From: Sulfobacillus acidophilus DSM 10332
Lineage (GTDB): Bacteria > Bacillota > Sulfobacillia > Sulfobacillales > Sulfobacillaceae
NCBI GenBank assembly: GCA_000237975.1
Contig: CP003179.1
Location: 1,178,001-1,242,000, forward strand
Direction of reading: 5' to 3'
Length of the DNA: 64,000 nt
The first letter of the stretch is position 1, and each line of letters starts with the position of its first letter. Shown here piece after piece: positions 10,001 through 35,060 of the stretch. A program made the position numbers and the translations under genes. The notes below the pieces were generated by a model that was given only the letters and a program-made list of their open reading frames with translations, was not told the origin of the DNA and made no database searches.

Positions 10001-10006
10001 ACTCGT

Positions 10007-13813: not shown

Positions 13814-13845
13814 ATCAGATTCCGTAGTCTCACATCGACACTTCC

Positions 13846-13890: not shown

Positions 13891-13912
13891 TTCTAAAGGG
13901 GGGGGGGTATCC

Positions 13913-14821: not shown

Positions 14822-14826
14822 AGATC

Positions 14827-14869
14827 ATCTGGCTCTCGAGCGCCAAACGCTATGAGAGCCAGATTTTTT
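14827..14869 (+). terminator. Strong intrinsic terminator
   Basis: ATCTGGCTCTC (14827-14837) pairs perfectly with GAGAGCCAGAT (14854-14864), followed by a T6 run. It separates the exported-protein genes from the Tad pilus operon. Confidence 0.9.
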
Positions 14870-14882
14870 GCGAGGTGTTGTT

Positions 14883-16235: not shown

Positions 16236-16236
16236 C

Positions 16237-16863: not shown

Positions 16864-16887
16864 AATAACCACGAGAGGAGCAATCAC

Positions 16888-18231: not shown

Positions 18232-18246
18232 AGGGGCGAATAATTA

Positions 18247-19155: not shown

Positions 19156-19179
19156 CAAGGAACCAGGCGGGCGATTATT

Positions 19180-19989: not shown

Positions 19990-20032
19990 CGCACCGTTAT
20001 GAAGTCATGACCCCCCGCCCCCGCTCTACCCC

Positions 20033-20066
20033 CGCCCAAACGATCCGGCTCGTTTGGGCGTTTTTT
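20033..20066 (+). terminator. Intrinsic terminator after tadC
   Basis: CGCCCAAACGA (20033-20043) pairs perfectly with TCGTTTGGGCG (20050-20060), followed by TTTTTTG. It isolates the pilin gene from the upstream tad operon. Confidence 0.92.
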
Positions 20067-20124
20067 GATCGCGCCCCCCTGATAGGGGCCGGCGATCTAA
20101 AACTTCAACATGGAGGTACAAAAC

Positions 20125-20358
20125 ATGGTACAAGCCTTGCGGAATCTCGCCATTCGGGGGTACGCTGCCTGGATTGCTCGCACCGACACTCGGGGGGAAG
20201 GTCATACGGGGTCCAATATTATTTGGATTATCGCGGTCATCGTTCTAGGAGGGGTCATTTTAGGCTTTGTCGCCGGGGCCGGAACGGCTTGGATGCACAA
20301 CAACTTTAACACCGTCACGCAGATGAATCCCGGCAGTAATGTAACCACAACGGGTTAA
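20125..20358 (+). CDS. Flp/Tad-type major pilin candidate
   Basis: The 77-residue protein has a short basic leader, a 25-residue hydrophobic helix (IIWIIAVIVLGGVILGFVAG) and a short polar tail. Aligning RGEG-HTGSN with Flp prepilins places the leader-peptidase cut after GEG, with Thr at +2 as in many Flp pilins but Asn at +5 where glutamate is usual. Two prepilin peptidases are encoded nearby. ATG 20125 is chosen because GGAGGT lies 8 bases upstream; ATG 20110 precedes that site. The gene stands alone between two strong hairpins, consistent with separate, high expression of the structural subunit. Confidence 0.72.
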   Translation: MVQALRNLAIRGYAAWIARTDTRGEGHTGSNIIWIIAVIVLGGVILGFVAGAGTAWMHNNFNTVTQMNPGSNVTTTG

Positions 20359-20369
20359 TGAGCCATTCG

Positions 20370-20403
20370 CCCCCTCCCCCCACTAATCCACCGGGGGAGG
20401 GGG
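20370..20403 (+). terminator. Hairpin after the pilin gene
   Basis: CCCCCTCCCCC (20370-20380) pairs perfectly with GGGGGAGGGGG (20393-20403); TTAAATA follows. Together with the terminator at 20033-20066 it makes the pilin gene a one-gene unit. Confidence 0.7.
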
Positions 20404-20442
20404 TTAAATAGGCGTTCCTCTGATCAGAAGGGGGAAATCAGG

Positions 20443-21399
20443 ATGCGCGACAGCACGCTATGGAAGCGGCCCTGGCGATGGGCGGGGGAGGGGACTACCG
20501 CAGGATCGGTCATCGCCTTAATTTTGTTAACCTTTGGCTTAACGGGCGGCATAGCACTCCAGCGAGTATTGCATACGGATAACGTATTAACCCAAGCCGC
20601 AACAATTGCGTTGCAATCCGAAGAGCAAAACGGATGTTGGACCGCGGCGACCACGCAAGCGGTAAGCAACACCTTAAAAGCCGGGGGGCTTGTGCCCAGC
20701 GCGGCTAAAGTAACCCAGTATACTGGCTCCACGCAATCCTATGGACAACCCGTCGTGGCCGGAATTCAATACCCCCTCCAAGTCTCGGTCGTCACTATGC
20801 CCGTTATGACCATTCCTGTCGCTTCGGCAGAATCGGGATCGAGTTTTTATGTTCCCAACGTAAGCGGAGGAACCAACACCGGGTGTACGACGCCGACGCT
20901 GGGGTATTGTCCGCAAACGACCTATCAGACACAATGCACACCCGCCCACCAAGTCTGTCAACCCGTCACATCGCAACAATGCGTCCCGGTCACACAACAA
21001 GTCTGTGGGACATCCTATCAAGAACAATGCGGATATCGGCCCGTTACGTCATATAGTTGTGGCCCCCAATCATCATGCGGATGGACGACACGGACTGTTT
21101 GTTCTCCGACAGAGCGATACGGGCTACTTTGGTGCCTCGGTACACCCAGCGACCCCTATAAATATTGTCACTACGGATGGTATCCAACGACGACTTGTAC
21201 CCCGCAATCGGTATACACTTGCCAAACGACGTATACTTGTGGCTGGCACACGAGCACCCAGTATTCGTGTACAACCGTTCCGGTTACCTCCTGCTCCTAT
21301 CAAACGACCCAATCGTGCCACCTCGTCACCACAACCCAATGCACCACCGTTCCTGAATCGTGTCAACAAGTTCCGGTCACCGTGAACACTTGCGGATAG
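20443..21399 (+). CDS. TadE-like anchored protein with cysteine-rich tail
   Basis: The N-terminus (GEGTTAGSVIALILLTFGLTGG) is a prepilin/TadE-like hydrophobic segment after a short basic leader, a possible substrate of the prepilin peptidases. The exported C-terminal ~175 residues of 318 are built of irregular Cys/Thr/Gln/Val units (TTTQCTTVP, SQQCVPVTQQVC) with about 22 cysteines in total. It may be a minor pilin or pilus-tip protein held by disulfides; this is inference. Tad pseudopilins normally lack such a tail, so the fusion is unusual. ATG 20443 follows GGGGAAATCAGG. Confidence 0.62.
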   Translation: MRDSTLWKRPWRWAGEGTTAGSVIALILLTFGLTGGIALQRVLHTDNVLTQAATIALQSEEQNGCWTAATTQAVSNTLKAGGLVPSAAKVTQYTGSTQSYGQPVVAGIQYPLQVSVVTMPVMTIPVASAESGSSFYVPNVSGGTNTGCTTPTLGYCPQTTYQTQCTPAHQVCQPVTSQQCVPVTQQVCGTSYQEQCGYRPVTSYSCGPQSSCGWTTRTVCSPTERYGLLWCLGTPSDPYKYCHYGWYPTTTCTPQSVYTCQTTYTCGWHTSTQYSCTTVPVTSCSYQTTQSCHLVTTTQCTTVPESCQQVPVTVNTCG

Positions 21400-21425
21400 T
21401 CGGATCACCCAACGGAGGAAAGTTC

Positions 21426-21977
21426 ATGGCTGCGATCTTATGGGGATGGTTTTTCCTCGTCCTCGGCCTGTTTGCGTGGACGGATTACCAGGGCGTGGCC
21501 CAACTGAATACGACCATTCAAACGATTAGTGGTGAGGTTCAACACGCGGTCGCGGGCAGTCTTATGCGTCCCGTGACGGCGCCGGGCGGCGGAGGCTATA
21601 TCAACGAAAGCCTTCAAGGACAAACCGTGCAATTCAGTCTCAACGGCATCATGCAAGGAACCGCCACCCTCTTGCACGACACTGATCCGAGCAGTATCGT
21701 GACCTTTACCCCTTCGGGAGGATTAGCCTGGTCCTTACCGGCGGCTCAACAATCCGCATTTCGTTTAACCGGCCCGGTTTTGATTGACCCTGTTCAATGC
21801 GTATCGTCCACCCGACCGCCCCAAATCACCACTCAAGTCGTGATACCGATGAGCTTGCCGATTCCCCTTGTTCAACAGTGGTGGTCCGCAACGGTTACGC
21901 AAACAATTACCATTCCCGTTGCGGGACAAGCCCCGCAAGACCAATTTAATGCGACCCAGTCATTAACATGCTCTTAA
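21426..21977 (+). CDS. TadE/TadF-like membrane-anchored protein
   Basis: The 183-residue product has an N-terminal membrane segment (ILWGWFFLVLGLFAW) and an exported beta-rich, Thr/Pro-rich domain with two cysteines. Size, topology and place between the TadE-like gene and cpaB suggest a minor pilin or pilus accessory protein. No specific family motif is visible. ATG 21426 is supported by GGAGGAAAG just upstream. Confidence 0.55.
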   Translation: MAAILWGWFFLVLGLFAWTDYQGVAQLNTTIQTISGEVQHAVAGSLMRPVTAPGGGGYINESLQGQTVQFSLNGIMQGTATLLHDTDPSSIVTFTPSGGLAWSLPAAQQSAFRLTGPVLIDPVQCVSSTRPPQITTQVVIPMSLPIPLVQQWWSATVTQTITIPVAGQAPQDQFNATQSLTCS

Positions 21978-22034
21978 ATTCGTGCCATTTCTGGTTCAGA
22001 AGGAAGGGGGAATGGGGGATTCGCCCCATGCTCG

Positions 22035-22745
22035 ATGCATAATGCCATCAAATTCGTGATTGCGACTAGTATCGCCGGGGCCGCGACATTCGCGGCCTGG
22101 CATGCAACTCGGCCCGCCGCTTTAACGTCCGTCGCCGTCGTCACCCAACCCGTGGCGGCTTGGACTCCCTTGTCGCCCACGAGTGTCGCCTGGCTCCGTG
22201 TAGCCAATCCGCCCGCCGGCGCCATTACCCAGCCCCAGGCTATGGCCCATTTCATCACGAATGCTCCCCTAGCCGCCGGGACGATCCTCACCCTCAACGA
22301 TAATTGGTCCGTCAACCCCAATGGCCTTCATGCGGGGGAAGTCCAATGGATTGTTCCAGTCACCGAATCGACGAGCGGGTTGGCCGGCGTCGGACAACGA
22401 GTGGATGTTTGGGATGTGGCTAATGGGCAACCGATTTTGATTGCCCAAGGGGTTCGCGTCATTGGACTCTTTACCAGTAACGGACAACCGATTCTGGCCT
22501 CGACCCCTGCGATGGCCGCCAGTAGTACTGGCGATTCCACGAATAATCCGGGGTCTGTGGGGCTAATGGCCTTGGCGGTTCCGGCTCAGGATATGTCCGT
22601 CTTATTAGGTCTGGCGAATCCTGCTTTTGTCGTCGATCCGAATGCGACCCATTTCGTTTGGCGATGGGGCGGGCCGCCCTCAGCCCCCCCCGCTAAGGTT
22701 CCGGGAACCCCTCCGCCTGCCCCGGCGTCGAATCCCAAGCCATGA
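22035..22745 (+). CDS. CpaB/RcpC-like SAF-domain pilus protein
   Basis: The 236-residue protein has an N-terminal anchor (residues ~5-25) then a SAF domain: VVTQPVAAWTPLSPTSVAWLRV, APLAAGTILT, and a second part VPVTESTSGLAGVGQRVDVWDV typical of CpaB/RcpC. In diderm bacteria CpaB works with the secretin; in monoderms it probably organises the pilus at the wall. The C-terminus is Pro-rich. The stop codon overlaps the prepilin-peptidase start (ATGA), so the two are translationally coupled. Confidence 0.8.
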   Translation: MHNAIKFVIATSIAGAATFAAWHATRPAALTSVAVVTQPVAAWTPLSPTSVAWLRVANPPAGAITQPQAMAHFITNAPLAAGTILTLNDNWSVNPNGLHAGEVQWIVPVTESTSGLAGVGQRVDVWDVANGQPILIAQGVRVIGLFTSNGQPILASTPAMAASSTGDSTNNPGSVGLMALAVPAQDMSVLLGLANPAFVVDPNATHFVWRWGGPPSAPPAKVPGTPPPAPASNPKP

Positions 22746-23182
22746 TCCGGTTGAGCGCCCCGATATCGTATCTCCCGACCGTCATTCTATGGTTCGCAAC
22801 GGGCATCGCAGCCTGGCACGATTGGCGCGTTCATCGAATCCCCCCGTTTTGGATAGGGGTGGCGGTGGGAACGACGGGGATTTGGCTGCTTCTTGGGGTC
22901 TGGCCGATATCCCGCTTGCTTTGGGGGGCGGGAATTTGGGGGTTTTATGAACTCGGATTGCGCAGGATGCCCGAATCCGTGGGATGGGGCGATGTCCAGT
23001 GGGCGACCTTGCTCATGATTGGGCTAGGCCCGTGGGGCATTATCCCCATTCTCGCCGGACATCTGGGCATCGAATATTTCCATTGGCGATACCCCCATCG
23101 GGTGGGGCATCCGTGGATGCCCGGCGCATGGGGGGGTCTCACCGGCTTGGGACTCTTTTGGATCATTTGGGTACACGGATAA
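22742..23182 (+). CDS. Prepilin peptidase, CpaA/TadV type (A24)
   Basis: This aspartic membrane protease cleaves prepilin leaders. The 146-residue polytopic protein has the two family aspartates in context: HD27WRVHRIP near the first membrane segment and GWGD83VQ, the GxGD motif. Length matches the short CpaA/TadV type without a methylase domain. Likely substrates are the Flp-like pilin (20125) and the TadE-like protein (20443). It overlaps cpaB by four bases. Confidence 0.87.
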   Translation: MIRLSAPISYLPTVILWFATGIAAWHDWRVHRIPPFWIGVAVGTTGIWLLLGVWPISRLLWGAGIWGFYELGLRRMPESVGWGDVQWATLLMIGLGPWGIIPILAGHLGIEYFHWRYPHRVGHPWMPGAWGGLTGLGLFWIIWVHG

Positions 23183-23218
23183 TGATCAATTTTCTATAGC
23201 GGCGAGAGAGGTGAAGTG

Positions 23219-23803
23219 ATGGCTTCACAACAAATCTGGGTTCGTTGGGATTTGCCGAATGTCGCGCCCCCGCCGGCCGCTTATCAACCGATGATTGTCG
23301 CGTGGATTTTCGGGGGAGTGGGGTATCTCTTCGGGGTAACGGAGGTGCCGGTCGGCCCGTGGCGGGCTTTGTGGATTGTCGGGATTACCGGAGTGGCGGT
23401 TTGGGGCTGGGCCCTCATGTGGCGACGCACGACGGAACCCGCTTTGTGGGATGGGCACCGAGTGATCGGGCAACAGTCCGGAGTATCGGCGGTGGTGGCG
23501 GGCTGGGTACCGGCGGTGCCCGGAGGGCGATGGGGCGGAATCATCGGCAAAGGCTTCGTACAGGGCCTCTTTGGTGGCTGGGTCATCGCGGCTGCGCATT
23601 TGCCGGGATCTATCGGGCATGGATTCACGACGGTTTATGCGGCGCCGATGGCCCTATGGCGGCGGGATGCCCTCGCGCTGGGGTTGGGCCTCGTGATTCC
23701 GGGGGCGTTCATGATGCCATGGAACACACCCTATCGAGCGTATGACGATCAATATAACCTGATCGCTATGGGATGGTTTGCAAAGCCCCCTCAACTCCCT
23801 TGA
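23219..23803 (+). CDS. Unknown membrane protein of the Tad locus
   Basis: The 194-residue protein has two N-terminal membrane segments (~28-65) joined by a tight turn, a soluble stretch with GHRVIGQQSGVS, and hydrophobic C-terminal segments rich in Gly and Trp. I do not recognise the family. It lies between the prepilin peptidase and the PilZ-like gene, so a pilus role is likely by position only. ATG 23219 and the immediately preceding GTG 23216 both fit the GAGAGGTG site. Confidence 0.55.
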   Translation: MASQQIWVRWDLPNVAPPPAAYQPMIVAWIFGGVGYLFGVTEVPVGPWRALWIVGITGVAVWGWALMWRRTTEPALWDGHRVIGQQSGVSAVVAGWVPAVPGGRWGGIIGKGFVQGLFGGWVIAAAHLPGSIGHGFTTVYAAPMALWRRDALALGLGLVIPGAFMMPWNTPYRAYDDQYNLIAMGWFAKPPQLP

Positions 23804-23867
23804 CCGGCTTCATCCGCTCATAACTCCTCGCATTTTAAGACAATCAGGCTTAATAAGGAGGTATCTT

Positions 23868-24539
23868 ATGCACCTGGCTCCTCCGCAGGTTCCGACCACG
23901 AATGATCCCCGTCTTCAACGCCCTCCGTTATATGTTCCCGTTCGACTCCATCATCCGCTTCGGGGGGCGCAAGAAACGTGGACGACCATGATTCGTTTAC
24001 GATTGCCCACCGAAGATTTACTGGCAGCGCCGTTGACCTGGCCCCAAAATACGCCGTGGCCGGACGGCGATACGGTTTTGACCTGGCACCACCAAGGGCA
24101 AGCCTTACAATACCCCGTTCATTTAACAACGGCATCCGGAGCGATCAATTATTGGCGAATTCGCTACCGAGGCCCTGCGGAAATCATCAACGAACGTCAG
24201 GAATGGCGCAATACCGAATGGACATTGTGGGGGCGGATTTGGCCGTTAACCGACGTTCAACTCGCGCACACCACGCGCAGCTATGACTTTTCGCCTAGTG
24301 CTATTCGTCTCTGGCTAAACACCATGACAACCCCGGATACCCTCTGGGGGGTGGAATGGCGCTTAGACGATAATGCCAAAATTACCGGAACGATGCGCGT
24401 CATTCGCCAAGAAACGCAGTCCACCACCTGGCGATATCAACGCGGGTGGATCACGGTGATGCGCTGGGAACAATTTGGCCCGGCCCACGATCAGGCGTGG
24501 CGCCTTTTCTGTTGGAAACATCAACCGAAAATCTTATAG
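23868..24539 (+). CDS. YcgR-type PilZ-like c-di-GMP receptor
   Basis: The 223-residue soluble protein resembles YcgR proteins: an N-terminal beta domain (~15-105) with DTVLTWHHQGQALQYPVHL, then a PilZ-like domain. The PilZ ligand motif RxxxR is present as R110-QEW-R114; the second motif D/NxSxxG appears as D140-FSPSA, with Ala replacing Gly. The downstream strands (GTMRVIRQ, the tail DQAWRLFCWKHQ) follow PilZ order. Such proteins bind cyclic di-GMP and switch pili, flagella or polymer synthesis. Placement after the Tad genes suggests pilus control. ATG 23868 follows AAGGAGGT; an upstream TTG would overlap the previous gene. Confidence 0.6.
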   Translation: MHLAPPQVPTTNDPRLQRPPLYVPVRLHHPLRGAQETWTTMIRLRLPTEDLLAAPLTWPQNTPWPDGDTVLTWHHQGQALQYPVHLTTASGAINYWRIRYRGPAEIINERQEWRNTEWTLWGRIWPLTDVQLAHTTRSYDFSPSAIRLWLNTMTTPDTLWGVEWRLDDNAKITGTMRVIRQETQSTTWRYQRGWITVMRWEQFGPAHDQAWRLFCWKHQPKIL

Positions 24540-24566
24540 CGCAAAAGGGACCGTCGATAAAACTCC

Positions 24567-26009
24567 ATGAACACCAAACATCCGATAATTGCCCCGTTAC
24601 TTGCTCTCACCGCGTTGCTGGCTTTAGCGCCTTTAGCCGGATTCACTTTGCATGGCGATGTCTTCTGGGATTTAGCGACCGGACGATGGGAATGGACGCA
24701 TCACGCCGTCTTGCGGTGGAATCCGTTTTCGTGGGGAGATCACGCCCCCTGGGTCAACAATGAGTGGGGCTGGGGTCTCATCCTTTATACCGCTAGTCGG
24801 TTCGGCCCGTGGGGGCTGTTGAGCGTGGCCGGGCTGGGTATTGTCGGGTGGTGGACCGGATTACGGGCCGTGATGCGGCGTCTCGCCCTCCCTTCGACCG
24901 CGCAATTGGGGATCTTAATTTTGAGCCTGCCCTTCGTCTGGCCGGGCTGGAGCGACCGCCCGCAAATTTGGGCCTATGCCTTCGCTGTATGGGGATGGGT
25001 CGTCTTATGGGATTGGGCCGATCCCCGACATGTCTGGACCTGGCGAGATGGCATCGCCCTTCTCGGCTGGATTCTGTGGGTTCAAATTCATGGGTCTTGG
25101 ATTCTCATCCCGGTGTGGGCCGTCATTTTGTCCACGCGACCGGGGGTCGCCCGCCGCCGGTTGTGGGGGGCGGCGATAGGAGCTTTGGGGCTGGCGGCGG
25201 TCGATAATCCGTGGGGATGGGCCTATGTGCAAAAGGCCCTGTTCACGTCCAGTTCCTCGACGATTGCATCGGCTATCGTCGAATGGTTGCCCCCGTCTTT
25301 TCATCAGGTGTTCGGGGTTTGGCTCCCGTGGATGATTCTCTTAAGCATCTTAACCTGGGGGATGGCCACCCGGCCTTTGTCGATCCGGGTCGAAGGCTGG
25401 CGGTGGATGATGCTAGCGGGTCTGGTAGGAGCTGCCCTTTATGCGGTCCGGTTTGAGCCGTATTTACCGTTGGCGTTGGCGTTGGGATGGCCGGCCCCGT
25501 CGATCCGATTCCCCGCCATTAAGCCCCCCCGATGGGTCGCTCCCGCCCTGTGGGGGATCGTCGGCATGGGGATACTGCTCATTGGCATTCGGATCGCCCC
25601 ATTGCGAACCGCATCCCTGACGGCCCCGCCCTTTGTCGCGGCGAATGTCGAGCTCAATCCCAGTGCCGAACCGGTGGCGGCGGTCGTCTGGCTGCAGCAC
25701 CACCCCGCCCAAGCCCGGCGCGTCTTCAATAATTATCGCATTGGGGGCTATTTGACGTGGATGGGGATTCCCGATTGGATTGACGGGCGCACCGGGTTTT
25801 GGATTCAAACGAGTCATCGATTCACGGCCTATGCGACGGTGATCGACGATCATACGTCGCCCCGTCCGGTCATTGCCGCCGCGCACCCGACCGCCATTCT
25901 CGCCCCCACAACCTCCCCGTGGATTTGGGGCATCACGGGGTGGCAGGGATGGCATGTGGCTTGGCATCAACAAGGCTGGACGATTTTGGTATCCTCAACC
26001 GGCGGATGA
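24567..26009 (+). CDS. GT-C-like polytopic membrane protein
   Basis: The 480-residue protein has ~9-11 membrane segments. The first extracellular loop, GDVFWDLATGRWEWTHH...NPFSW...WVNNEWGWGLILY, matches the acidic-loop signature of a widespread GT-C-like family. The C-terminal exported part has RVFNNYRIGGYLTWMGIP and WIDGRTGFW, also typical of those proteins. GT-C enzymes transfer sugars from polyprenyl-linked donors outside the membrane. A role in glycosylating pilins or surface proteins of this element is plausible but unproven. Confidence 0.65.
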   Translation: MNTKHPIIAPLLALTALLALAPLAGFTLHGDVFWDLATGRWEWTHHAVLRWNPFSWGDHAPWVNNEWGWGLILYTASRFGPWGLLSVAGLGIVGWWTGLRAVMRRLALPSTAQLGILILSLPFVWPGWSDRPQIWAYAFAVWGWVVLWDWADPRHVWTWRDGIALLGWILWVQIHGSWILIPVWAVILSTRPGVARRRLWGAAIGALGLAAVDNPWGWAYVQKALFTSSSSTIASAIVEWLPPSFHQVFGVWLPWMILLSILTWGMATRPLSIRVEGWRWMMLAGLVGAALYAVRFEPYLPLALALGWPAPSIRFPAIKPPRWVAPALWGIVGMGILLIGIRIAPLRTASLTAPPFVAANVELNPSAEPVAAVVWLQHHPAQARRVFNNYRIGGYLTWMGIPDWIDGRTGFWIQTSHRFTAYATVIDDHTSPRPVIAAAHPTAILAPTTSPWIWGITGWQGWHVAWHQQGWTILVSSTGG

Positions 26010-26051
26010 TATAATGAACATCAAGAAATATCAAACGAGGAGGGGCTACGG

Positions 26052-26522
26052 ATGGCGACGGATATGACGCTCAAAATTCCAACCCTGGCGGATTTATGGC
26101 GATGGATTCGGCGCGGGGACTCTCTTGCGCCTCACGAATCCCTTCAACCGTCCGTGATGCCATCCCCGCCCCTCTCGGAGAAGGCTGACGCCCCCCGCAT
26201 TCGACGCATTCGGCCAGTCCCTCCGATGCCCGGCGTCGCGTCGCCGGGGGTGTCGCCGACCCCCATCGTCTCCAACCGGCCCGCGCCGGCCCCGACGCAG
26301 GACCAAGCGGCCCAAACTCGCGAACGCATCGCCGTGCGATGGATTCAGCAACTCCCCTCCGGCACGCCCATTCACGTCCGAACCTTGGCCCAAGTCGGGC
26401 CGTGGCCGATAGGGACAACGTGGCATTTAGTACAACGGATCGCGGCTCGGTATCCGCACCTCGTCGAAGTCAAAGAACAGGAACAGGGGGGCAAACGGAT
26501 TCGAGAATGGTATCGGCGCTAA
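26052..26522 (+). CDS. Unknown protein with possible winged-helix tail
   Basis: The 156-residue protein has a Pro-rich, probably disordered middle (~30-90) and a compact basic C-terminal ~65 residues (IAVRWIQQLPSGTPIHVRTLAQVGPW through KRIREWYRR), whose predicted helices and turn would suit a small winged-helix fold. No membrane segment is seen. It may be a DNA-binding accessory protein. A textbook terminator follows six bases after its stop. AGGAGGGG precedes ATG 26052. Confidence 0.5.
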   Translation: MATDMTLKIPTLADLWRWIRRGDSLAPHESLQPSVMPSPPLSEKADAPRIRRIRPVPPMPGVASPGVSPTPIVSNRPAPAPTQDQAAQTRERIAVRWIQQLPSGTPIHVRTLAQVGPWPIGTTWHLVQRIAARYPHLVEVKEQEQGGKRIREWYRR

Positions 26523-26527
26523 CCGCC

Positions 26528-26552
26528 CGCCCGCTTCGGCGGGCGATTTTTT
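26528..26552 (+). terminator. TTCG-tetraloop intrinsic terminator
   Basis: CGCCCGC (26528-26534), loop TTCG, GCGGGCG (26539-26545), then T6. The next gene starts at once after the T run, so that gene must be expressed by readthrough or from an internal promoter. Confidence 0.93.
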
Positions 26553-26918
26553 ATGACCTGGATTACTTGGATTATTATTGCCAGCATCTTAATTGTGGGC
26601 CACGAACTGGGCCATGCCGCGGCCATGTTGTGGTATGGTCGCCTGCCCGACGCCCTCGTCGGGCGATGGTGGGGAATTGGCCTGCGGTGGAATATCCACG
26701 GATTATCGGTTCGAGCGCTTCGACACACCCTCTGGGCGGGGCCGTTAACCGAATTCGGGTTAGGCGTGATAGGCTATCTGGGGCATCCTCAGCATCCGGC
26801 ATGGATTCTTTTGGCAACGCTGGATACGGCCATCCAATTGATTCCTTGGGGCTTTTGGCCCAACGACGGCACCCGCCTCTGGCGCACTCGGCCCCTTATC
26901 AATCCTGATGTTGACTAA
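26553..26918 (+). CDS. Mini site-2 protease-like membrane metallopeptidase (M50)
   Basis: The 121-residue membrane protein has the zinc motif H17-E-L-G-H21 inside its first membrane helix and WPND105GTRLW near the end, matching the NPxxDG third-ligand motif of S2P proteases. It is far shorter than usual M50 enzymes (200-400 residues) and has no PDZ domain, but all three metal ligands and the catalytic Glu18 are present. S2Ps cut membrane-embedded regulators or signal-peptide remnants. No clear anti-sigma substrate is seen nearby. There is no good ribosome site: the ATG abuts a terminator T run. Confidence 0.7.
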   Translation: MTWITWIIIASILIVGHELGHAAAMLWYGRLPDALVGRWWGIGLRWNIHGLSVRALRHTLWAGPLTEFGLGVIGYLGHPQHPAWILLATLDTAIQLIPWGFWPNDGTRLWRTRPLINPDVD

Positions 26919-26949
26919 CTTTGATATTTACAGGAAAAGGGAGGTTGTC

Positions 26950-27402
26950 GTGTCCGCGTTTATCGAGCGCCAACGGCGCTATCCCGATCTTTTGGCGTAT
27001 CCGGGGTGGGACGATCTCATGCACAGTCAACTGGCCTGGGGCTTTGACTGTGGACCGGGATGGTTGCCGCTGATTGATATCGCTCTCGCAACCCTCAACT
27101 GGGGGTCACAACACGCCCCCACCGCGACCATCCATGTGCGCCAAGTGAAAGAAAAATTTGGGCGCTTAACCATTTATGCGGATTTGTCGAACGTTCCCCC
27201 GCCCGTTCGCGATGGCATCCTGTCCATTTTATCCCATTTAGCCGACCTCTCAACCTATACGTGCGAACAGTGCGGCCAAGCGGGGGCCCTGCGATCTACG
27301 GGAGGCTGGTGGCAGACTCTGTGCGATGCCTGTGAAACCGCTTGGCAAACTGCTGATGAACCGTTAAGCCAATTTCGCATCCGGTTAGGACGGGAGTTCT
27401 GA
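26950..27402 (+). CDS. Zinc-ribbon-containing hypothetical protein common in mobile elements
   Basis: The 150-residue protein carries the pattern CGPGWLPLI...VRQVKEKFGRLTIY...YTCEQCG...WWQTLCDAC, which I know from a family of uncharacterised phage and mobile-element proteins. The paired CxxC motifs (CEQC and CDAC) should bind zinc. Function is unknown. GTG 26950 is chosen because GGGAGG lies just before it; an in-frame ATG at 26908 would overlap the previous gene. It overlaps the following gene in a TGATG junction. Confidence 0.6.
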   Translation: MSAFIERQRRYPDLLAYPGWDDLMHSQLAWGFDCGPGWLPLIDIALATLNWGSQHAPTATIHVRQVKEKFGRLTIYADLSNVPPPVRDGILSILSHLADLSTYTCEQCGQAGALRSTGGWWQTLCDACETAWQTADEPLSQFRIRLGREF

Positions 27403-27929
27403 TGACAGTCGCCCTGGCTATTCTGAGCAGCGTGAGTTGGGGAGGCGTGGCTTTTTATCAAACGTGGCGCGATTGGCGAGATCGCCTCTTGCCGCCCGGC
27501 CCCAGTCTCTTGGCCGTCGCCATCACGTGGCTGACAGGATGGAGCGGATGGCATTGGTCATCGGCCATTTTTCTGCACCACGTCGAAGCGGGCCTAGGAC
27601 TCGGGGTGTTGTGGGCGCCGCTGTGGTGGTGGGGAGGTTTAGGGCTGGGGGATCTCGGCACGGCTATCGCACTCGGACTCAGTTTAGGCACCCTGCCTGC
27701 GTTCGCGGCGTTAGGGATGGGTCTTGTCGCGACGCTGATCGGCTGGGGCAGTCTGCGAGGCGTGCGGGCCATCACCGGACGCTCCCGCATCGAAACGCCT
27801 CAATCCGACGGGACGCCGCCCCTCATTCCGCTGGGGCCGGGCCTCTGGTTGGCAGGGTGGGGGGTGTGGCTGTGGTTGGTATGGATTCATAATGCTCCCG
27901 CCCACGGTCTGCTGATGATTAATCGATGA
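27402..27929 (+). CDS. Second prepilin-peptidase-like protein (A24)
   Basis: The 175-residue polytopic protein keeps both A24 aspartates: WRD24WRDRLLPPG after the first membrane segment and GLGLGD84LGTAIALGL, the GxGD motif; TPPLIPLGPGLWLAGW resembles the last conserved segment of prepilin peptidases. It is distinct from the enzyme at 22742 and lies outside the Tad block, in a cluster with the S2P-like gene. It may process a second set of pilins, or act as a GxGD protease on another substrate. Confidence 0.72.
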   Translation: MTVALAILSSVSWGGVAFYQTWRDWRDRLLPPGPSLLAVAITWLTGWSGWHWSSAIFLHHVEAGLGLGVLWAPLWWWGGLGLGDLGTAIALGLSLGTLPAFAALGMGLVATLIGWGSLRGVRAITGRSRIETPQSDGTPPLIPLGPGLWLAGWGVWLWLVWIHNAPAHGLLMINR

Positions 27930-27968
27930 ACAAATAGTAACATTAAACCTTGGGTGGAAGATTCAAAC

Positions 27969-28367
27969 ATGACCTATATTCCCACGACACTTGCCCAGGC
28001 TTGGACCGATGCTCTCGCGGGTCACGCATCTCCCCGCATTGTGTTGGGTAATTTTTTAGATGATTGGCGACGAGTATCCCAGCCCGAAAACCGTCACCGG
28101 CTTATCCGCGATCCCATTGCCGATACGGACGACGAGGAACTGCATCGGTGGGGAGCCTTTCTAGCTGCCACTGTCGAATATCTCACGGTGCGGGATGGTG
28201 TGCCGACGCCGCCGTGGGTTTTTGAGGATCGTTGGGTATTGCCCGAACCGTGGTTTTTATTATCGTACTGGAAAATGCGGGCGTGGCAACTGGCTGCCAC
28301 ACCGCCGCCGTGGAAACGCCGTCGAATTTTCGGGGGCGATGAACGCATGTTGATTGGGCGAGTCTAA
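27969..28367 (+). CDS. Conserved hypothetical protein, possible toxin-antitoxin-linked family
   Basis: The 132-residue soluble protein contains WGAFLAATVEYLTVRDGVPTPPWV, WVLPEPWFL and a C-terminal PPWKRRRIFGGDERMLIG. This pattern occurs in a family of short hypothetical proteins often paired with nucleotidyltransferase-like partners, though no such partner is present here. Function unknown. ATG 27969 has TGGAAG 8 bases upstream; GTG 27954 is in frame but has a weaker site. Confidence 0.5.
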   Translation: MTYIPTTLAQAWTDALAGHASPRIVLGNFLDDWRRVSQPENRHRLIRDPIADTDDEELHRWGAFLAATVEYLTVRDGVPTPPWVFEDRWVLPEPWFLLSYWKMRAWQLAATPPPWKRRRIFGGDERMLIGRV

Positions 28368-28542
28368 CACGTAGCGGCTCGACCCTGGCTTGGACGCATT
28401 GGGTAGAGAAGAGAGTCCGGCCCGCCCCTGTTTTTGATGTTGTCTGTCTTTGTCCTTGACTCGGTGATATTTACCGAATTTCCTGCCACCTACTCTCCCG
28501 GTATTTCGTCTCAGACATCACCCAACGGTTTCTGCGACAAGA

Positions 28543-28808
28543 ACCTCAAATGGGGTTCTTGCCTGCCCTGACCGTTTACCGACTCCCGAACGCTCATTCC
28601 GAGGGCAGACCGCAGGGGATCGGGGCGGCTTAGTGTTTCGGCCAAAAAGACAACAACAGGCAACATCAAATTTGAGGGCCGGTTGTGCTGTTTTGAGAAA
28701 CGATCCCTCTCGAAATCCATTGGGCCTCGCGAAAAACCTCAACCGGGGTTCTAGCCCGGAGACCCACAACGCCGCTACTGCTATTTCGCAAACCCCTATC
28801 GGGGTTCT
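28543..28808. repeat. Three copies of a 17-bp dyad repeat upstream of int
   Basis: ACCTCAAATGGGGTTCT (28543), ACCTCAACCGGGGTTCT (28736) and ACCCCTATCGGGGTTCT (28792) fit ACCYCWAHYGGGGTTCT. Each contains an inverted repeat; the first extends to CAAGAACC/GGTTCTTG and the third is AACCCC-TATC-GGGGTT. They lie in the 489 bp between 28368 and 28856, which otherwise holds no gene, and may bind a repressor or serve as integrase arm sites. A further dyad, TCGGTGATATTTACCGA, is at 28461-28477. Confidence 0.6.
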
Positions 28809-28820
28809 CCGTGCTATAAT
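28792..28820 (+). promoter_or_regulatory. Likely integrase promoter overlapped by a repeat
   Basis: A perfect TATAAT is at 28815-28820, 36 bases before the integrase ATG. The -35 position (28792-28797) has no consensus and is covered by the third 17-bp repeat, suggesting control by a protein bound there. Confidence 0.5.
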
Positions 28821-28856
28821 TCGGGGTACAATCCATCGTCGGGAGGTTCCTGCCCC

Positions 28857-30029
28857 ATGTCCTCACGCCCTAAAGAACCCCACGCCGCCGCCCCCCGGAA
28901 ACTCCCGTCGGGCCGTTGGCAGGCGCGGGTCACGTATTGGGATCGGGAGACCGGACAACGCAAAGAATTGACGCGCACCTTTGCCACCGAGCGGGAAGCT
29001 AAGAAATGGGCGAGAGAAGAAGAAGTTAAGTTACGGGAAACATGGCTTTCCCCACAGACATTATTAACTCTGACTGTCAACAACGTATTGGACCAATGGT
29101 TGGATGCCAAACGACTAAAACCAGTAGCTCGTTCCACCCTAGAGAGTTATATCGGACATCTCCGACATGTTCGACAGGCATTTGGTAATCAACTCGTTAA
29201 AGATATTAGCCCTAGTGATATACAAAAATTATATGCGTCCTTGAGTCATACCCATAGTCCGCGAACGGGTCAATACGTGGCGACACTTCTTCGCAGTGCA
29301 TTAGATTGGGCTGTTACGATGGATTTGATACCGACCAATCCAGCCCGAAAAGTTTCGAAGCCCCAAGTCCCTCGACGTGAAATGATTGTTCTCACTCCAG
29401 AAGATGCCACAAAATTATTACGGGTAGCCCAACAACATCGCCTGTATGCTCTGTGGTGGTTCATTGCTCTTATGGGAGTACGTAAAGGCGAGGCATTAGG
29501 TCTGTATTGGGAGGACATTGATTGGAATACCAAAACTGTTACAATCCGACGCACACTATCAGGGTCAGGGCGTCGGCGGTACCTATCTGCCCCTAAGACT
29601 CATCATAGCACCCGAACATTGGCGATGCCCGATATATTGATTCAAGTATTAAAACAATGGAAAGAGCAACAACAGAAAGATCGTATAATTGCTCAAACGA
29701 ACTGGGTCGAAACGCCTTATGTTTTTACAACCAAACGAGGAACACCGTGGGATGCGAGTGCGGTGACCCATCATTTTAAACGTGTCTTGCGTCAAGGAGA
29801 TTTTCCGACCCATTGGCGTATTCATGATCTGCGACACGCGATGGCAACACATTGGCTGGCTTCTGGTATTTCACCCAAAGTTGTGAGCGAACGGCTTGGT
29901 CATGCGAGTGTGGCTTTTACGCTTCAAGTGTATGCCCATGCATTGCCGCATCAACAAGCAGAGGCCGCCGAATACATGGCTGCTCGTCTATTAGGGCGAT
30001 CCACACACGATCCACACGAACCAACATAA
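28857..30029 (+). CDS. int: Tyrosine recombinase (ICE integrase)
   Basis: The enzyme catalyses integration and excision of the element. The 390-residue protein has an N-terminal arm-binding domain (GRWQARVTYWDRETGQRKELTRTF), a SAM-like core-binding domain (~65-150) and a catalytic domain with R209 (GVRKGEAL), a hairpin lysine (APKTHHSTRTL), H323-DLR326, H349 (LGHAS) and nucleophile Y359 (LQVYAHAL). All catalytic residues are present. It lies ~115 bp from the selC junction and reads toward it, the usual arrangement at an ICE end. Base use is AT-richer than in the pilus genes. Confidence 0.93.
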   Translation: MSSRPKEPHAAAPRKLPSGRWQARVTYWDRETGQRKELTRTFATEREAKKWAREEEVKLRETWLSPQTLLTLTVNNVLDQWLDAKRLKPVARSTLESYIGHLRHVRQAFGNQLVKDISPSDIQKLYASLSHTHSPRTGQYVATLLRSALDWAVTMDLIPTNPARKVSKPQVPRREMIVLTPEDATKLLRVAQQHRLYALWWFIALMGVRKGEALGLYWEDIDWNTKTVTIRRTLSGSGRRRYLSAPKTHHSTRTLAMPDILIQVLKQWKEQQQKDRIIAQTNWVETPYVFTTKRGTPWDASAVTHHFKRVLRQGDFPTHWRIHDLRHAMATHWLASGISPKVVSERLGHASVAFTLQVYAHALPHQQAEAAEYMAARLLGRSTHDPHEPT

Positions 30030-30141
30030 CCCATCAAATCGAACATCATCCTCAAAACCCAGAGGAATCCCAAAACGCTTGAAAAGACTAACGTAGAATA
30101 TTGGAACACCGTCGTTCACAACCCAAAAAACATACCATCCT

Positions 30142-30162
30142 AAAACTTCAAATCCGGTGGCT
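30142..30162. other. Right attachment junction (attR) of the ICE
   Basis: Homology to tRNA-Sec begins around the anticodon loop, right after the unrelated sequence TAAAA, so the integrase crossover lies here. The element should carry a matching selC 3' half that restores the tRNA at its left end, outside this window. The exact core length cannot be read from one end only. Confidence 0.7.
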
Positions 30163-30208
30163 GGCCTTAGAGGTCAGCGGTGGGTTCGATTCCCACATAC
30201 TCCCGCCA
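30145..30208 (+). tRNA. selC: 3' half of tRNA-Sec (selC), split by the ICE
   Basis: From CTTCAAATCCGG onward the sequence matches a selenocysteine tRNA: anticodon loop CTTCAAA (anticodon TCA), 3' anticodon strand TCCGG, a long variable arm CTGGCC-TTAGA-GGTCAG, T arm GTGGG-TTCGATT-CCCAC, an eight-base acceptor strand ATACTCCC, discriminator G and CCA. The eight-base acceptor strand is diagnostic of tRNA-Sec. The expected 5' anticodon strand (CCGGA) is replaced by TAAAA, and the D arm and 5' acceptor strand are missing, so the gene is cut at the anticodon stem-loop. Confidence 0.85.
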
Positions 30209-30223
30209 ACTTAAGCCCCGTAA

Positions 30224-30250
30224 GGCTTCCGAGGATCGGAGGCCATTTTT
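30224..30250 (+). terminator. selC terminator
   Basis: GGCTTCCGA (30224-30232) and TCGGAGGCC (30236-30244) form a 9-bp stem with one G-T pair and a three-base loop, followed by ATTTTTATTT. It lies 16 bp after the tRNA end and probably is the original terminator of selC. Confidence 0.75.
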
Positions 30251-31242
30251 ATTTGGGTTCAAAATATCCAAAAATGCCCTAGCCATATTCCGATCGTCTT
30301 CGCGAGCCGTCACCAAGAGATGGCGGAGCCGAAAGACCGCAGCAAATGTCAGTGACAGTAGAGACGCGCCGAGCGATGATAACAGCACCACGAATTTTGA
30401 TGCATCAATGGGCGGTCGGGGCGAGCTCATCGATTTGCGTGTCGTGGTTGGAGGCGATATATGGCAATATAATGAGTGTAGACGTGATCTCGACAGACGA
30501 CGCATCCGGAACAGAGGGAAGCCGCAATCGCCGACCCAAGTGAAGGATTTCCTGTTTCCCTTGGGGGGCATTGCCACTTGGCGCGAAACGGGCAAAATCG
30601 GGGTTGGTATGGCGAGCCATTCGGATGATCTAAAGGAGGCCGTCGAGGTCAAACGACGAGCGGCTCGGGCTGAGAGTCTAGTATCGGAGATAATGACCAG
30701 GCCAAAGCCTTTGCGCAGCGGGATCGTTATTGGCTCTAGGTCGTCTGGAATTTCGGTAGTGCCCGTCCCTACGCGATTCCAATCGCTGACCCCTTTAGAC
30801 GAATATTAGCGCGGAGCAAGGAGGGGTTATGATCCCTAACCCCGAAATCGCCTAGGTGACACTGATCTGCGGATCGCGCGCTGTCTTAGTCGATACCACC
30901 AGTTAAAGGGGCGATACGCTAGTGATAGGCTGAACTGGCTCAACCTGGGCGACTTTTTCACACCGATGGGCGGCGGCCAGCGGTTGTTAGGAGCTAGCCG
31001 CGATGTCGATGGGTTGTCCGTGTGGATTCCCCCACGATGGCATGAGCAAGGTGCGGGTGCCCATCTTTCTGGATAAATTGTCCAGGATGGACTATGTTCT
31101 TGACCGTTCTACTGGAATACCTGCACCACGATCAATAAATTAATCCCCGTGCCGCAGGCCGCGGATTCGCGCCTCCTCAAACCGAGTTCCTAAGTGTAAT
31201 TAAAGGCACGTTAACGGATCGTTGGAATTAACGAAAGGGTGC
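30251..31242. other. About 1 kb without a recognisable gene
   Basis: Open frames exist on both strands (the longest about 210 codons forward and 160 reverse), but none has a good ribosome site together with a recognisable domain, and the longest begins inside the tRNA. The stretch probably holds decayed remains between the ICE junction and the defence genes. Confidence 0.5.
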
Positions 31243-32040
31243 ATGAACATTCAACTTTTAACATATTTTATAGTTAGCAAGGACGAGTTTTTGATTTTTC
31301 GGGCAAGCGAAGGTAAACTCGGTCAGTTGATAAATAAATTGCCAGCCGAGTATCGACGATGTTACATAACGGATCAAGATTTACTAGATCGGGTTTCAAC
31401 GTTCAAGCGTTCTTATAGCGACATATTGAGGGAAGCTTATATCCCGGATGAGCCCAAGATAAAATCAGCGGAATTTGCTGAGATTCTATCGTATTTCCTC
31501 GTGAAGGAGCATTATCAACCCAACTATGTTCTCAAGGGGCCCAAAAAGTGGCGTTGGAAAGAGGACCGCAATCAGCCCGTCCACAAGACCGATATTGTCT
31601 TATTTGCGAAACAGGCGGATAGCCCTTCTAACGATGATCTTGTTGTGGCGGTTGAGGTGAAGGCTAAGGCTACGCAGAAAAACTCCTACGACCCGATTCA
31701 TGACGCGGTAAAAGGCGCCCATGATGATTCCACTAGGCGCCTTGCAGCTACGATCAACTGGTTAAAATCACAGTACGTTAAGAGAAACAATCCCGAGGCA
31801 GTGGAGTATCTTGAACGGTTCCGAAATCCAGTTGAACACGGTTCGTATCAAAAACACTTTAATGCGGTGGCGGTTGTTGATGAACAACTAGCAGAAGCGG
31901 AATTGACGCGGCCACGCGATTTAAGTCCATATTCATTTTCAGACCCGTTTTGCATCATTGTTGTATCAATCCCTAGTCTCAAGACGATGTACGAAAACGT
32001 TTACGAAAAAATTCCTGCGTCGGGGGGGGACTTATTTTGA
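31243..32040 (+). CDS. hamA: HamA-like nuclease (DUF1837) of a Hachiman defence system
   Basis: In Hachiman antiphage systems HamA is a DUF1837 effector nuclease that works with the helicase HamB. The 265-residue protein has a PD-(D/E)xK-like core: an early E (AEILSYFL), D117 in HKTDIVLF, and E138-V-K140 in VAVEVKAKA. Length (~280 usual) and coupling to a ~1000-residue helicase fit Hachiman. ATG 31243 is close to GAAAGGGTG; a TTG at 31222 is in frame upstream. Its stop overlaps the next start (TTGA). The pair has lower GC than both flanks, suggesting separate transfer. Confidence 0.72.
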   Translation: MNIQLLTYFIVSKDEFLIFRASEGKLGQLINKLPAEYRRCYITDQDLLDRVSTFKRSYSDILREAYIPDEPKIKSAEFAEILSYFLVKEHYQPNYVLKGPKKWRWKEDRNQPVHKTDIVLFAKQADSPSNDDLVVAVEVKAKATQKNSYDPIHDAVKGAHDDSTRRLAATINWLKSQYVKRNNPEAVEYLERFRNPVEHGSYQKHFNAVAVVDEQLAEAELTRPRDLSPYSFSDPFCIIVVSIPSLKTMYENVYEKIPASGGDLF

Positions 32041-35000
32041 TTGAAAGCAAGCTGGCGTATTGGGTAGCTCAATCGAAATCATGGCATACCTTTAAGGAAT
32101 TCAAGCTGTCCATCGAAAATCAAGCCGACTATCCATTTTTAGGGCATCCTAAAGATTTCTATATTACGTTATTTGGGAAAATGTTTGAACTAATTCATAA
32201 AGACCCATCAGAAGAAAATGCAGCACTAAATCGCATCAAAAATCAGATGCTGCAAATCGCCAAAGGCATGGAAATATATTCGCTCAAGGAAACCCGTTCG
32301 GAGTTTCAGGGGGTAGACTTTTCCAGGAATATGCTTTATGTAGCTTCTCTATATTACTTGGCTGATTATCCCGCATCGGCCTATATTTTGGCGAAGTTGT
32401 TTCCTCCGACTGTATATGAAGGAGAAGTCGACCAGTTCATATCGTCATTTCTTTGTAGGGATCTAGACCATTTGCCAACCTTTGCCGACCCCTTCGCCCG
32501 TTTTGTTTTAACCGGTAAACGGGAGAATTTAGAGGGTTTGTCCGCGACACTTCATGACGGGTCAGTGAAAGCCCGTGATCCCGATGAGTTTGTGTCGTTT
32601 CGAATTGCCGAAGCATTGGTCAAAAGCTTTATGGCTAACAACGTATGGCAGGATCTCGCAGACCGTTTCGATGTTCTGACTGAAGAGCGGTGGAAACAGT
32701 TTATTCGGCACGGGTTTGACCGAAGACCACCCGTGTGGTCTTTCTTTCCATCGCAGAGGCAAGCAATTGCACAAGGAATTTTGTCCGAAGACGCGAGATG
32801 TTTTGCGCTCCAGATGCCAACGAGCGCCGGGAAAACCGCACTTTGCGAACTGATCATCTTTAACCATATCTTGCAGAAACCAGGGAAAGTCTTGTTTCTT
32901 GCACCATATCGTGCACTAGCCTCCGAACTGCTGAGCGGGTTTGGTAGGCGTTTAGCTACCCTTGGAATTAGTTCGAAAGCTATGTACGGAGGGCACGTAC
33001 CTAACAATGAAGAGCGAGCGGCTATACAGGACGTTGACGTGCTGATCGCGACACCTGAAATGTTTTTAGCGGTCGAATCTGTTATCCCTGAGGTGTATGA
33101 GAGTTTCTCTCTTGTAATTTGCGATGAAGGACACCTCCTTGATGACACTACTCGGGGGTTGAACTACGAACTGTTGTTGGCAAAATTCAAGCTTCGGTCG
33201 CCAAATGCCCGGTTCGTGTTCCTTTCTGCGGTAGTACCGAACATAAATGAAATAAATCAGTGGTTGGGTGGCAATGAGTCGGTTGTCCGGTCGAATTACC
33301 GGCCAACAGAATTAGATTTGGCTTATCTTCAAAAAACAGCCAGAAATGGGTACATGTTAAACTTTAATCCCCATAAACGGCGACCCGAAAACTATCAGCT
33401 CTATCACTTCTTAACCCGAGGGGATATGGAATTTGTTAATATTCAAACTGGGCGGATTAACCATTATCGACTTGAAACCAGTGTAACTCGCCAATCCGTT
33501 GCCACTGCTATGAAAGCGTTACTTGCTGGGAAAGTCGCTCTATTCTCACCCCATAAAAGAAAGAATGGGGTAGAGAGTCTAGCTGAAGAGCTGATCAGGC
33601 AAACAATTAGCTCCTCTTTGCCAAAGCCGATCGAATTTGCGGATTCCACAATGATCGAACGTCTCCAAGAATACTTTGGGCGAGTGTTTGGAAAGGATTA
33701 TCTATTAACAAGATTGGTTCGGGTTGGTGCTCTGTACCACCATGGGGACTTACCTCAAAATATACGTGAAGTAGTCGAGTCCGCCATCCATACGTCGGCA
33801 TTTAGGTTATTAATCTGTACGAATACCTTGGCTGAAGGCGTTAACCTTCCCATTAAGGTGGTTGTTATTCACTCTGCCCGTCGGTTTGATAAGTATACAG
33901 GAACGCTCAAACCGCTGAAACTGCGTGACCTTGCCAACTTATTTGGCCGGGCGGGAAGATCTGGTCAGGAAACCACAGGCATGGTGATTGTTGTAAACCC
34001 TGTTGATCGACAGATAGTCAGCGATGCAATAGAGGGAACAAAGAACGAGGCGGTAAGCGGCTACCTGTTTGGTTTAATCGAAAACCTTGAGCGGGTTATT
34101 CGAGAACATCGGCTTGTACTCGATAACCGACTGTTGGAGAGTCAGAGCGAAGATTTTTTGCGGTTGCTCGATTCGATTGATGTGTCGCTTATTAGCCTAC
34201 TCGCAGAAGAGATCGATGTCGATCATTTAACACGCGAGATCAATACGCTAATACAAAGTACCTTTGCATATCATCAAGGCGACAGCGAACAACGCGACAC
34301 GCTCCGGGCGATTTTCAAAAGTCGTGGAGAACGATTGGTGCCTTATGTGCAAAACGGACAATTTAAAGCCATAAAAAACAGCGGGGCAACCCTGAGGTTC
34401 TTCGAGCAGGTCGTCCATAGGTTGCACCTTGAAGACGAAGTATGGAGCAAGACGACCCATCCATGCGATGACCGGTGGATGGCACATCTGTTTGATATCC
34501 TCTTTTCCCTGCCTCAAATTATAGCAACGGTGGATGATTTTAACACAGGACGATCCAAAGACGAGATGGCCGTTGACGCCACCGTTATTCGTGACATCTG
34601 CACTTTGTGGATGAAGGGACATTGGTATGGAGAAATTGCAACACGTCTTAATGTTGAAGTGTCTTATCTACTGCGTATTTTCTCGTCCATCGTGCACTCC
34701 ACAATTGGGACGTATGTGGCACAAATTATCCGATTAGCGTCGTATCTTTCAGAACATGAGGTCGGGATTTCGATTTCTGAGACAATCCTCGACTGGCCGC
34801 AATATCTTATGAGTGGCCTTCAGTATAAGACTGAACTGGAGTTGGTTAACCTTGGCTTTACTGAGCGTGAAGGTGTTATTGCTATAGCTAGATGGATGGC
34901 GCTGAATAATGTTCAGGGGTTTTCAGGTCCTGCGTTAAAAAGCTGGCTTGTGTTGTTTGAGGATAAACTCTTAGCTGAGATCAAGGACCTCATTACGACA

Positions 35001-35060
35001 GTGGCCTACGATAAAAGCGCTAAGGATTTTGACCTTCTGAGACATCAACCAATCTTATAG
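32037..35060 (+). CDS. hamB: HamB-like superfamily 2 helicase of a Hachiman defence system
   Basis: The 1007-residue protein has an N-terminal alpha-helical region (~1-240), a helicase core with motif I MPTSAGKT (260-267), motif Ia FLAPYRALASEL, motif II DEGH (363-366), motif III FLSAVVPN, a second RecA domain with ALYHHGDLP, CTNTLAEGVNLP and motif VI LFGRAGRSGQ, then a long C-terminal region. This Ski2-like core matches HamB, which is thought to sense damaged or foreign DNA and hold HamA in check. The TTG start at 32037 follows GGGGGGG and overlaps the hamA stop. The gene appears intact. Confidence 0.78.
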   Translation: MIESKLAYWVAQSKSWHTFKEFKLSIENQADYPFLGHPKDFYITLFGKMFELIHKDPSEENAALNRIKNQMLQIAKGMEIYSLKETRSEFQGVDFSRNMLYVASLYYLADYPASAYILAKLFPPTVYEGEVDQFISSFLCRDLDHLPTFADPFARFVLTGKRENLEGLSATLHDGSVKARDPDEFVSFRIAEALVKSFMANNVWQDLADRFDVLTEERWKQFIRHGFDRRPPVWSFFPSQRQAIAQGILSEDARCFALQMPTSAGKTALCELIIFNHILQKPGKVLFLAPYRALASELLSGFGRRLATLGISSKAMYGGHVPNNEERAAIQDVDVLIATPEMFLAVESVIPEVYESFSLVICDEGHLLDDTTRGLNYELLLAKFKLRSPNARFVFLSAVVPNINEINQWLGGNESVVRSNYRPTELDLAYLQKTARNGYMLNFNPHKRRPENYQLYHFLTRGDMEFVNIQTGRINHYRLETSVTRQSVATAMKALLAGKVALFSPHKRKNGVESLAEELIRQTISSSLPKPIEFADSTMIERLQEYFGRVFGKDYLLTRLVRVGALYHHGDLPQNIREVVESAIHTSAFRLLICTNTLAEGVNLPIKVVVIHSARRFDKYTGTLKPLKLRDLANLFGRAGRSGQETTGMVIVVNPVDRQIVSDAIEGTKNEAVSGYLFGLIENLERVIREHRLVLDNRLLESQSEDFLRLLDSIDVSLISLLAEEIDVDHLTREINTLIQSTFAYHQGDSEQRDTLRAIFKSRGERLVPYVQNGQFKAIKNSGATLRFFEQVVHRLHLEDEVWSKTTHPCDDRWMAHLFDILFSLPQIIATVDDFNTGRSKDEMAVDATVIRDICTLWMKGHWYGEIATRLNVEVSYLLRIFSSIVHSTIGTYVAQIIRLASYLSEHEVGISISETILDWPQYLMSGLQYKTELELVNLGFTEREGVIAIARWMALNNVQGFSGPALKSWLVLFEDKLLAEIKDLITTVAYDKSAKDFDLLRHQPIL

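Follow-up and report, generated by a model that had tools for sequence, protein, structure and literature searches.

Known elements at tRNA-Sec and related systems

Genomic islands at selC, the gene of the selenocysteine tRNA (tRNA-Sec), are integrase-driven in the enterobacteria. The LEE is one of these selC-inserted islands (PMC6174562, PMC3408504). They share with the locus described here, from Sulfobacillus acidophilus DSM 10332, the tRNA-Sec gene as attachment site of an integrase-driven island, but belong to another phylum and are unrelated in gene content, and in S. acidophilus the identity block is 64 nt long, reaching from the anticodon loop as far as the CCA end. A preliminary description of the locus had rightly named selC as an island target in enterobacteria; the site is also used outside them, as tRNA-Sec is the attB of the Pf-tRNA-Sec prophages of Pseudomonas aeruginosa, and related phages with other integrases occupy other tRNA genes (PMC7549136). 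These, unlike the present element, are filamentous phages, and their identity block, of 27 bp, spans the T-arm and acceptor end but leaves out the anticodon loop.

Actinomycete ICEs (AICEs) and other elements of the FtsK/TraB type are generally known for insertion into tRNA genes, a tyrosine integrase, a small HTH protein, an FtsK-like translocase and a primase-polymerase-like protein, all of which recur in the S. acidophilus element, which is far larger and differs by a VirB4-like ATPase and Tad-type loci. In the same host family, Sulfobacillus thermotolerans Kr1 possesses an ICE with a T4SS/T2SS plasmid-like region (PMC6803676), likewise a plasmid-derived chromosomal element with secretion genes; neither a tRNA nor an integrase is mentioned in that source. 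At ssrA of Dehalococcoides, tandem islands are bounded by repeats of a single RNA gene, and several of them, which have no integration module, have been suggested to move by accretion together with neighbouring islands (PMC3146451). These islands and cis-mobilizable elements are a precedent for the tandem, integrase-less cassettes described below, except that the Dehalococcoides islands involve serine recombinases and ssrA, whereas the Sulfobacillus family shows tyrosine-type arm repeats, three tRNA genes, and cassettes of 1.4–5 kb with toxin-antitoxin or defence genes.

Insertion into tRNA genes, and into selC in particular, is a known kind of event. Its occurrence at selC in the Bacillota, and the use of selC throughout the family, seem not to have been described in the literature searched. 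The earlier remark that no Firmicute ICE had been described at tRNA-Sec also held, since no Firmicute element at this gene was found in the open-access literature searched, which does not prove absence.

The displaced half of selC and the intact gene

The window, a stretch of 64,000 nucleotides (C1:1178001-1242000), belongs to a genome of two contigs with 3,557,831 bases in all, of which the chromosome accounts for 3,472,898. Its positions 30145-30208 (C1:1208145-1208208) are identical in 64 of 64 nt to nt 33–96 of the intact tRNA-Sec on the same strand, starting with ACTTCAAATCC and ending with CGCCA, and a perfect match of this length is not due to chance. The 3' half of a tRNA-Sec previously recognised to the right of the integrase is thus real, and starts three bases later than the 30142 given for it.

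The sole full tRNA-Sec gene of the genome (C1:1103216-1103311, plus strand, 96 nt) is reported as tRNA-SeC by ARAGORN and scores 73 bits with Rfam (cut-off 47). It lies to the left of the half-gene in the same orientation, the two copies being 104,897 bp apart, so that the intact gene which the preliminary description expected at the other end of the element, as the decisive check, is present 104.9 kb leftward; the 5' end predicted for it, GGGAGTAT, comes close to the actual GGGGGTAG without matching it. A genome-wide pattern search that tolerates up to 3 mismatches locates the tRNA-Sec 3' part at these two sites and nowhere else.

Within the window ARAGORN detects no tRNA and Rfam nothing at its gathering threshold, and the fragment alone, with the wrong 5' half, reaches 18 bits as tRNA-Sec, as expected for a tRNA fragment. 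In the intact gene the 5' anticodon strand reads CCGGA; ahead of the fragment TAAAA stands in its place, the loss of CCGGA having already been noted, so that the junction falls on the 5' side of the anticodon loop or immediately after it, in agreement with the anticodon stem-loop position proposed earlier. The host genome encodes SelA and SelB, so tRNA-Sec is presumably in use, with selC under selection to stay whole, and an element restoring tRNA-Sec would be tolerated. Outside the window, a tRNA with a Cys anticodon (GCA; C1:1007566-1007656, minus strand; L002:1497-1591) scores 56 bits, above the Rfam cut-off for tRNA-Sec, and resembles the known tRNA-Sec-like Cys tRNAs.

Integrase, element ends and attachment sites

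The half-gene follows the end of a tyrosine integrase gene after 115 bp (Table 1). The tandem GATCCACAC pair in the 3' end of this gene has a counterpart at C1:1103387 and 1103399, 75–90 bp past the intact tRNA-Sec. The 120 kb examined contain four copies of this 9-mer, all of them in these two pairs, against about one expected by composition. The pairs most likely represent arm sites of the integrase, as the arm sites of tyrosine integrases usually take the form of short direct repeats, paired at both ends of the attachment region. Just inside the left end, a 66-aa ORF at C1:1103520 (MNTLPSHVEVLTVPEAARILRVSRFKMYDLVKK...) encodes, as judged by eye, an HTH_17-/MerR-type HTH protein, a likely excisionase by the same judgement. 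When joined in silico, the flanks of the element give a 96-nt tRNA-Sec accepted by ARAGORN, and the element's own ends give no tRNA with the same program.

Table 1. Features of the interrupted selC locus (window positions, unless prefixed C1)
Feature	Coordinates	Strand	Evidence
Whole element; its left 75 kb lie leftward of the window	C1:1103312-1208208, plus attL copy 1103248-1103311		
Right-hand 30 kb of the integrated element	1..30208		64-bp direct repeats at both ends; flanking synteny
VirB4/TraC-like ATPase (HerA/TraG P-loop)	4420..6297	+	Pfam DUF87 3e-11, P-loop_TraG 1.7e-10
FtsK-like DNA translocase, possible coupling/transfer protein	7544..9610	+	Pfam FtsK_SpoIIIE 2.9e-24
Tad/type IV pilus-like ATPase (16888-18231) and T2SSF membrane protein (18247-19155)	16888..19155	+	Pfam T2SSE 2.6e-24, T2SSF 2e-5
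Tyrosine integrase, 390 aa	28857..30029	+	Pfam Phage_integrase 3.1e-26, Phage_int_SAM_3, Arm-DNA-bind_4
Tandem GATCCACAC pair, 3' end of integrase gene; probable right-arm integrase sites	29998..30017 (copies at 29998 and 30009)	+	
attR, displaced 3' two thirds of tRNA-Sec (nt 33–96)	30145..30208	+	100% over 64 nt to intact tRNA-Sec
Cassette left end (a second class of elements, integrase-less), next to the half tRNA	30218..30386	+	82% identity to conserved left end
Hachiman pair, HamA (31222-32040) and HamB (32037-35060)	31222..35060	+	PADLOC HamA 1.8e-64, HamB 1388 bits
Conserved chromosomal genes, selC neighbourhood resumes	50904..58199		homologues downstream of selC in G018 and G019

The locus thus shows the components of a tRNA-targeted integrative element, namely an end-located tyrosine integrase, a tRNA 3' repeat with the intact tRNA opposite and an uninterrupted site in relatives, as well as those of the integration/excision module of an ICE, namely the integrase, att repeats, arm-type repeats and an HTH ORF. 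The best explanation, to which we give a probability of about 95%, is that a 105-kb integrative, possibly conjugative element entered selC by site-specific recombination through the tyrosine integrase encoded at the right end of the element. Directly observed are the repeats, the order of the genes, the sequence of the rebuilt tRNA, the synteny and the recurrence of this layout in relatives, and the proposed integration into selC is borne out by the matching arm-type repeats of both ends, the complete tRNA-Sec formed by the joined flanks and the uninterrupted site in two relatives. The integrase would have recognised the anticodon-loop region of tRNA-Sec, within which the exact crossover point would fall, and the incoming element would have brought its own copy of nt 33–96. 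Insertion would then have created a whole tRNA-Sec at the left junction, composed of the host's 5' part and the element's 3' part, and the native 3' part of the host gene would have been displaced to the right junction, as the half-gene of the window. Excision, of which the element may still be capable, would join the two halves and restore the original selC.

The S. acidophilus genome encodes a second integrase of the same subfamily (C1:414989-416143, L082), which is 44% identical, contains GGCGTCACCACG repeats in its 3' end and adjoins the 3' end of another tRNA gene.

Gene content and capacity for conjugation

The VirB4/TraC-like ATPase matches the NCBIfam TraC-F-type model at 2.8e-17, far under the curated cut-off, and its homologues are distant plasmid ones only; the FtsK-like protein matches FtsK at 1.1e-36 and plasmid_TraB at 2.3e-7, both under cut-off. 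The other recognised genes of the element encode a PolB-type exonuclease, a CI/LexA-like repressor with S24 peptidase, a PD-(D/E)XK nuclease, a helicase with HINT domain, a primase-polymerase-like protein, a BRO protein, IS elements, DNA methylases, a sigma factor-like protein, EAL and GGDEF proteins, two Tad-like loci, ParB and a DnaN-like clamp. The HINT domain lies between the helicase motifs of its ORF (L127:6153-8627; C1:1109152-1111629) and is a probable intein. A tRNA-Ser(UGA) gene is located inside the element (C1:1130364-1130453; L010:17365-17454).

A Pfam scan of roughly 55–60 larger ORFs of the element detects no relaxase, and the element is for this reason called integrative, possibly conjugative. 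The label ICE used in the preliminary description is kept as provisional because of the missing relaxase; conjugation is plausible from the VirB4-like and FtsK-like ATPases. A serious alternative, which we put somewhat below even odds, is a non-conjugative integrative element of plasmid-like or satellite-like nature, in which the Tad-like pili would serve another purpose and movement would occur in another way. It accords with the relaxase result and with the element's own replication-type genes (primase-polymerase-like protein, helicase, DnaN-like clamp and ParB), whereas the VirB4/TraC-like ATPase, the FtsK-like translocase and the Tad-type ATPases argue for conjugation, the backbone which they form recurs in two relatives, and FtsK-type transfer of dsDNA in actinomycete ICEs is generally known to work without a relaxase.

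These relatives contain the Tad/VirB4/FtsK backbone at C1 ~140–190 kb (G018) and C1 ~640–666 kb (G019) of their own genomes, and no integrase of the subfamily of the S. acidophilus enzyme is detected at either locus. selC was considered as the site of these backbones and rejected, as they lie ~25 kb upstream of selC at a different site; backbone and attachment site are thus not coupled.

selC in relatives and across the family

G018 and G019, two other species with complete or nearly complete genomes, contain an uninterrupted selC between homologues of the S. acidophilus flanking genes. The three genes upstream of it share 61–71% identity with their S. acidophilus counterparts, and of the downstream homologues, which correspond to the conserved chromosomal genes of Table 1, four share 57–78% and three 29–36%. 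The distance from selC to this downstream run is 3.4 kb in G018 and 5.1 kb in G019, those few kb being different DNA, and the same flanks are ~125 kb apart in S. acidophilus, where the element contributes 104.9 kb and the sequence to its right ~20.7 kb. The ~20 kb of further accreted DNA to the right of the half-gene implies that the history of the locus is longer than one event.

Matches to tRNA-Sec are present in 27 of 34 family genomes, many of which contain extra 3' halves beginning at nt 31–34. Integrases of the same subfamily are encoded ~90–120 bp ahead of tRNA-Sec halves in G006, G008, G022 (Sulfobacillus harzensis DSM 109850), G024 and G030, while the nearest relative found of the S. 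acidophilus integrase, 68% identical in the best segment, precedes a truncated tRNA-Sec half, ACTTCAAATCCAATGGTCGGCGTTAGACGCCGGTGG, in G028. selC is thus a conserved docking site in the family, with integrase relatives next to tRNA-Sec halves in six genomes besides that of S. acidophilus. A short repeat pair of its own is present close to the 3' end in most of these integrase genes, namely GATCCACAC in S. acidophilus, GGGCCGCAG in G006, G008, G022 and G030, and TTCATCAACA in G024, and left ends with GGGCCGCA repeats follow intact selC in G006, G022, G013 and G030.

Other integrases of the subfamily target tRNA-Arg(UCU), tRNA-Gln(UUG) and further tRNAs, the Arg and Gln halves being also cut at the anticodon loop. 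A quick tree, with moderate support, splits the tRNA-Sec targeters into two groups and nests one of these among the Arg and Gln targeters. Among 188 loci of distant integrase relatives from other genomes and viral contigs, searched with a pattern that misses decayed halves such as that of G028, convincing tRNA-Sec targets are found only at the two Sulfobacillus loci, together with one unrelated pattern match.

Integrase-less cassettes to the right of the half-gene

The ~170 bp next to the half-gene (Table 1), in which a single arm-like site, CGTCACCA, is located at 30308, have counterparts that follow selC or tRNA-Sec halves in many family genomes, where they form the start of small elements. 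The corresponding right end in those genomes is a conserved region of 150 bp, which contains a tandem CCGTCACCA and an inverted copy, and ends in a tRNA-Sec half without an integrase. A native selC terminator was considered for 30218-30386 and is disfavoured, since the sequence recurs twice in each of G020, G008 and G003, and in several genomes similarity in the post-selC sequence is lost just past the arm-like repeats, at about +110 to +130, both of which fit an element end better than a native selC flank. It may still be native flank where a second end is not found, as in G018.

This arrangement suggests another origin of the half tRNA, as the relic of a different and older element, one of the integrase-less cassettes, in which case the present integrase would not have made the junction. 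The cassette left end directly to the right of the half-gene and the many tRNA-Sec halves of the family without an adjoining integrase are compatible with it, but the sequence to the left of the half-gene is not the conserved cassette right end, whose model begins to match no earlier than the repeat start, the GATCCACAC pairs connect the integrase end with the left end beside the intact selC, and the 68% identical integrase of G028 likewise adjoins a tRNA-Sec half, so that this origin is very improbable and insertion by the adjoining integrase is preferred. Duplication or assembly error, a general possibility and nothing beyond, has next to no probability for a repeat that ends at the anticodon loop, is accompanied by an integrase and paired arm-type sites, and lies in a finished genome whose layout is repeated in independent genomes.

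The right-end model does not find the right end of the cassette begun at 30218 in the window. The variable region to the right of the half-gene contains the Hachiman pair, after the cassette end. At 37793-39556, the last 230 residues of a 588-aa ORF match DrmD in PADLOC, a possible DISARM-type remnant.

The pattern of arm pairs occurs in 22 of the 34 genomes and not once in the reversed control. The right ends terminate in halves, named by anticodon, of tRNA-Sec (14), tRNA-Arg(UCU) (about 30) and apparently tRNA-Phe (5), and 49 of 52, an approximate count as two loci overlap in sequence, have no subfamily integrase at their arms. Cis-mobilizable elements have flanking attachment sites but neither an integrase nor transfer genes, the integrase being supplied from elsewhere; the cassettes, as candidates for such elements, are bounded by tRNA halves and conserved arm-type repeats and mostly devoid of a subfamily integrase. 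Tandem ends are spaced 1.4–5 kb, and the cargo between them includes PIN, PemK/MazF, ParE, Abi_2, DUF4411 with an IrrE-type protein, and a TOTE-type conflict protein. One array (L078) comes after an integrase-bearing element, and G020 contains a small integrase-less cassette after selC; the cassette loci include L077, L078, L079, L275-L280 and L304. Integrases with CGTCACCA repeats are also encoded at other sites, such as tRNA-Arg(UCU) in G001 and the S. acidophilus paralogue at C1:414989, and the Arg and Sec cores, CTTCTAATCC and CTTCAAATCC, differ in one base of ten.

We tentatively propose, as an idea we hold with less than even confidence, that selC, tRNA-Arg(UCU) and tRNA-Phe anchor tandem cassettes, each with a tRNA half, two CGTCACCA-type arm pairs, no integrase, and toxin-antitoxin or anti-phage cargo, which would be moved in trans by integrases with the same arm repeats. 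Such movement, a hypothesis, would amount to an integron-like cassette system built on tRNA halves, with the 105-kb element at the head of one such array. The cassette arrays are a more unusual result than the selC insertion itself.

Implications

With this locus the Bacillota join the lineages with an attachment site in the single-copy gene of the selenocysteine tRNA, and one integrase clade keeps the tRNA-Sec target across genera. The exact ends, the core and the arm-type sites are now given for a 105-kb element of a biomining, mineral-oxidising bacterium, which makes its excision and transfer directly testable. The family-wide, integrase-less cassettes bounded by tRNA halves turn the existence of trans-mobilised cassette arrays outside integrons into a testable question.
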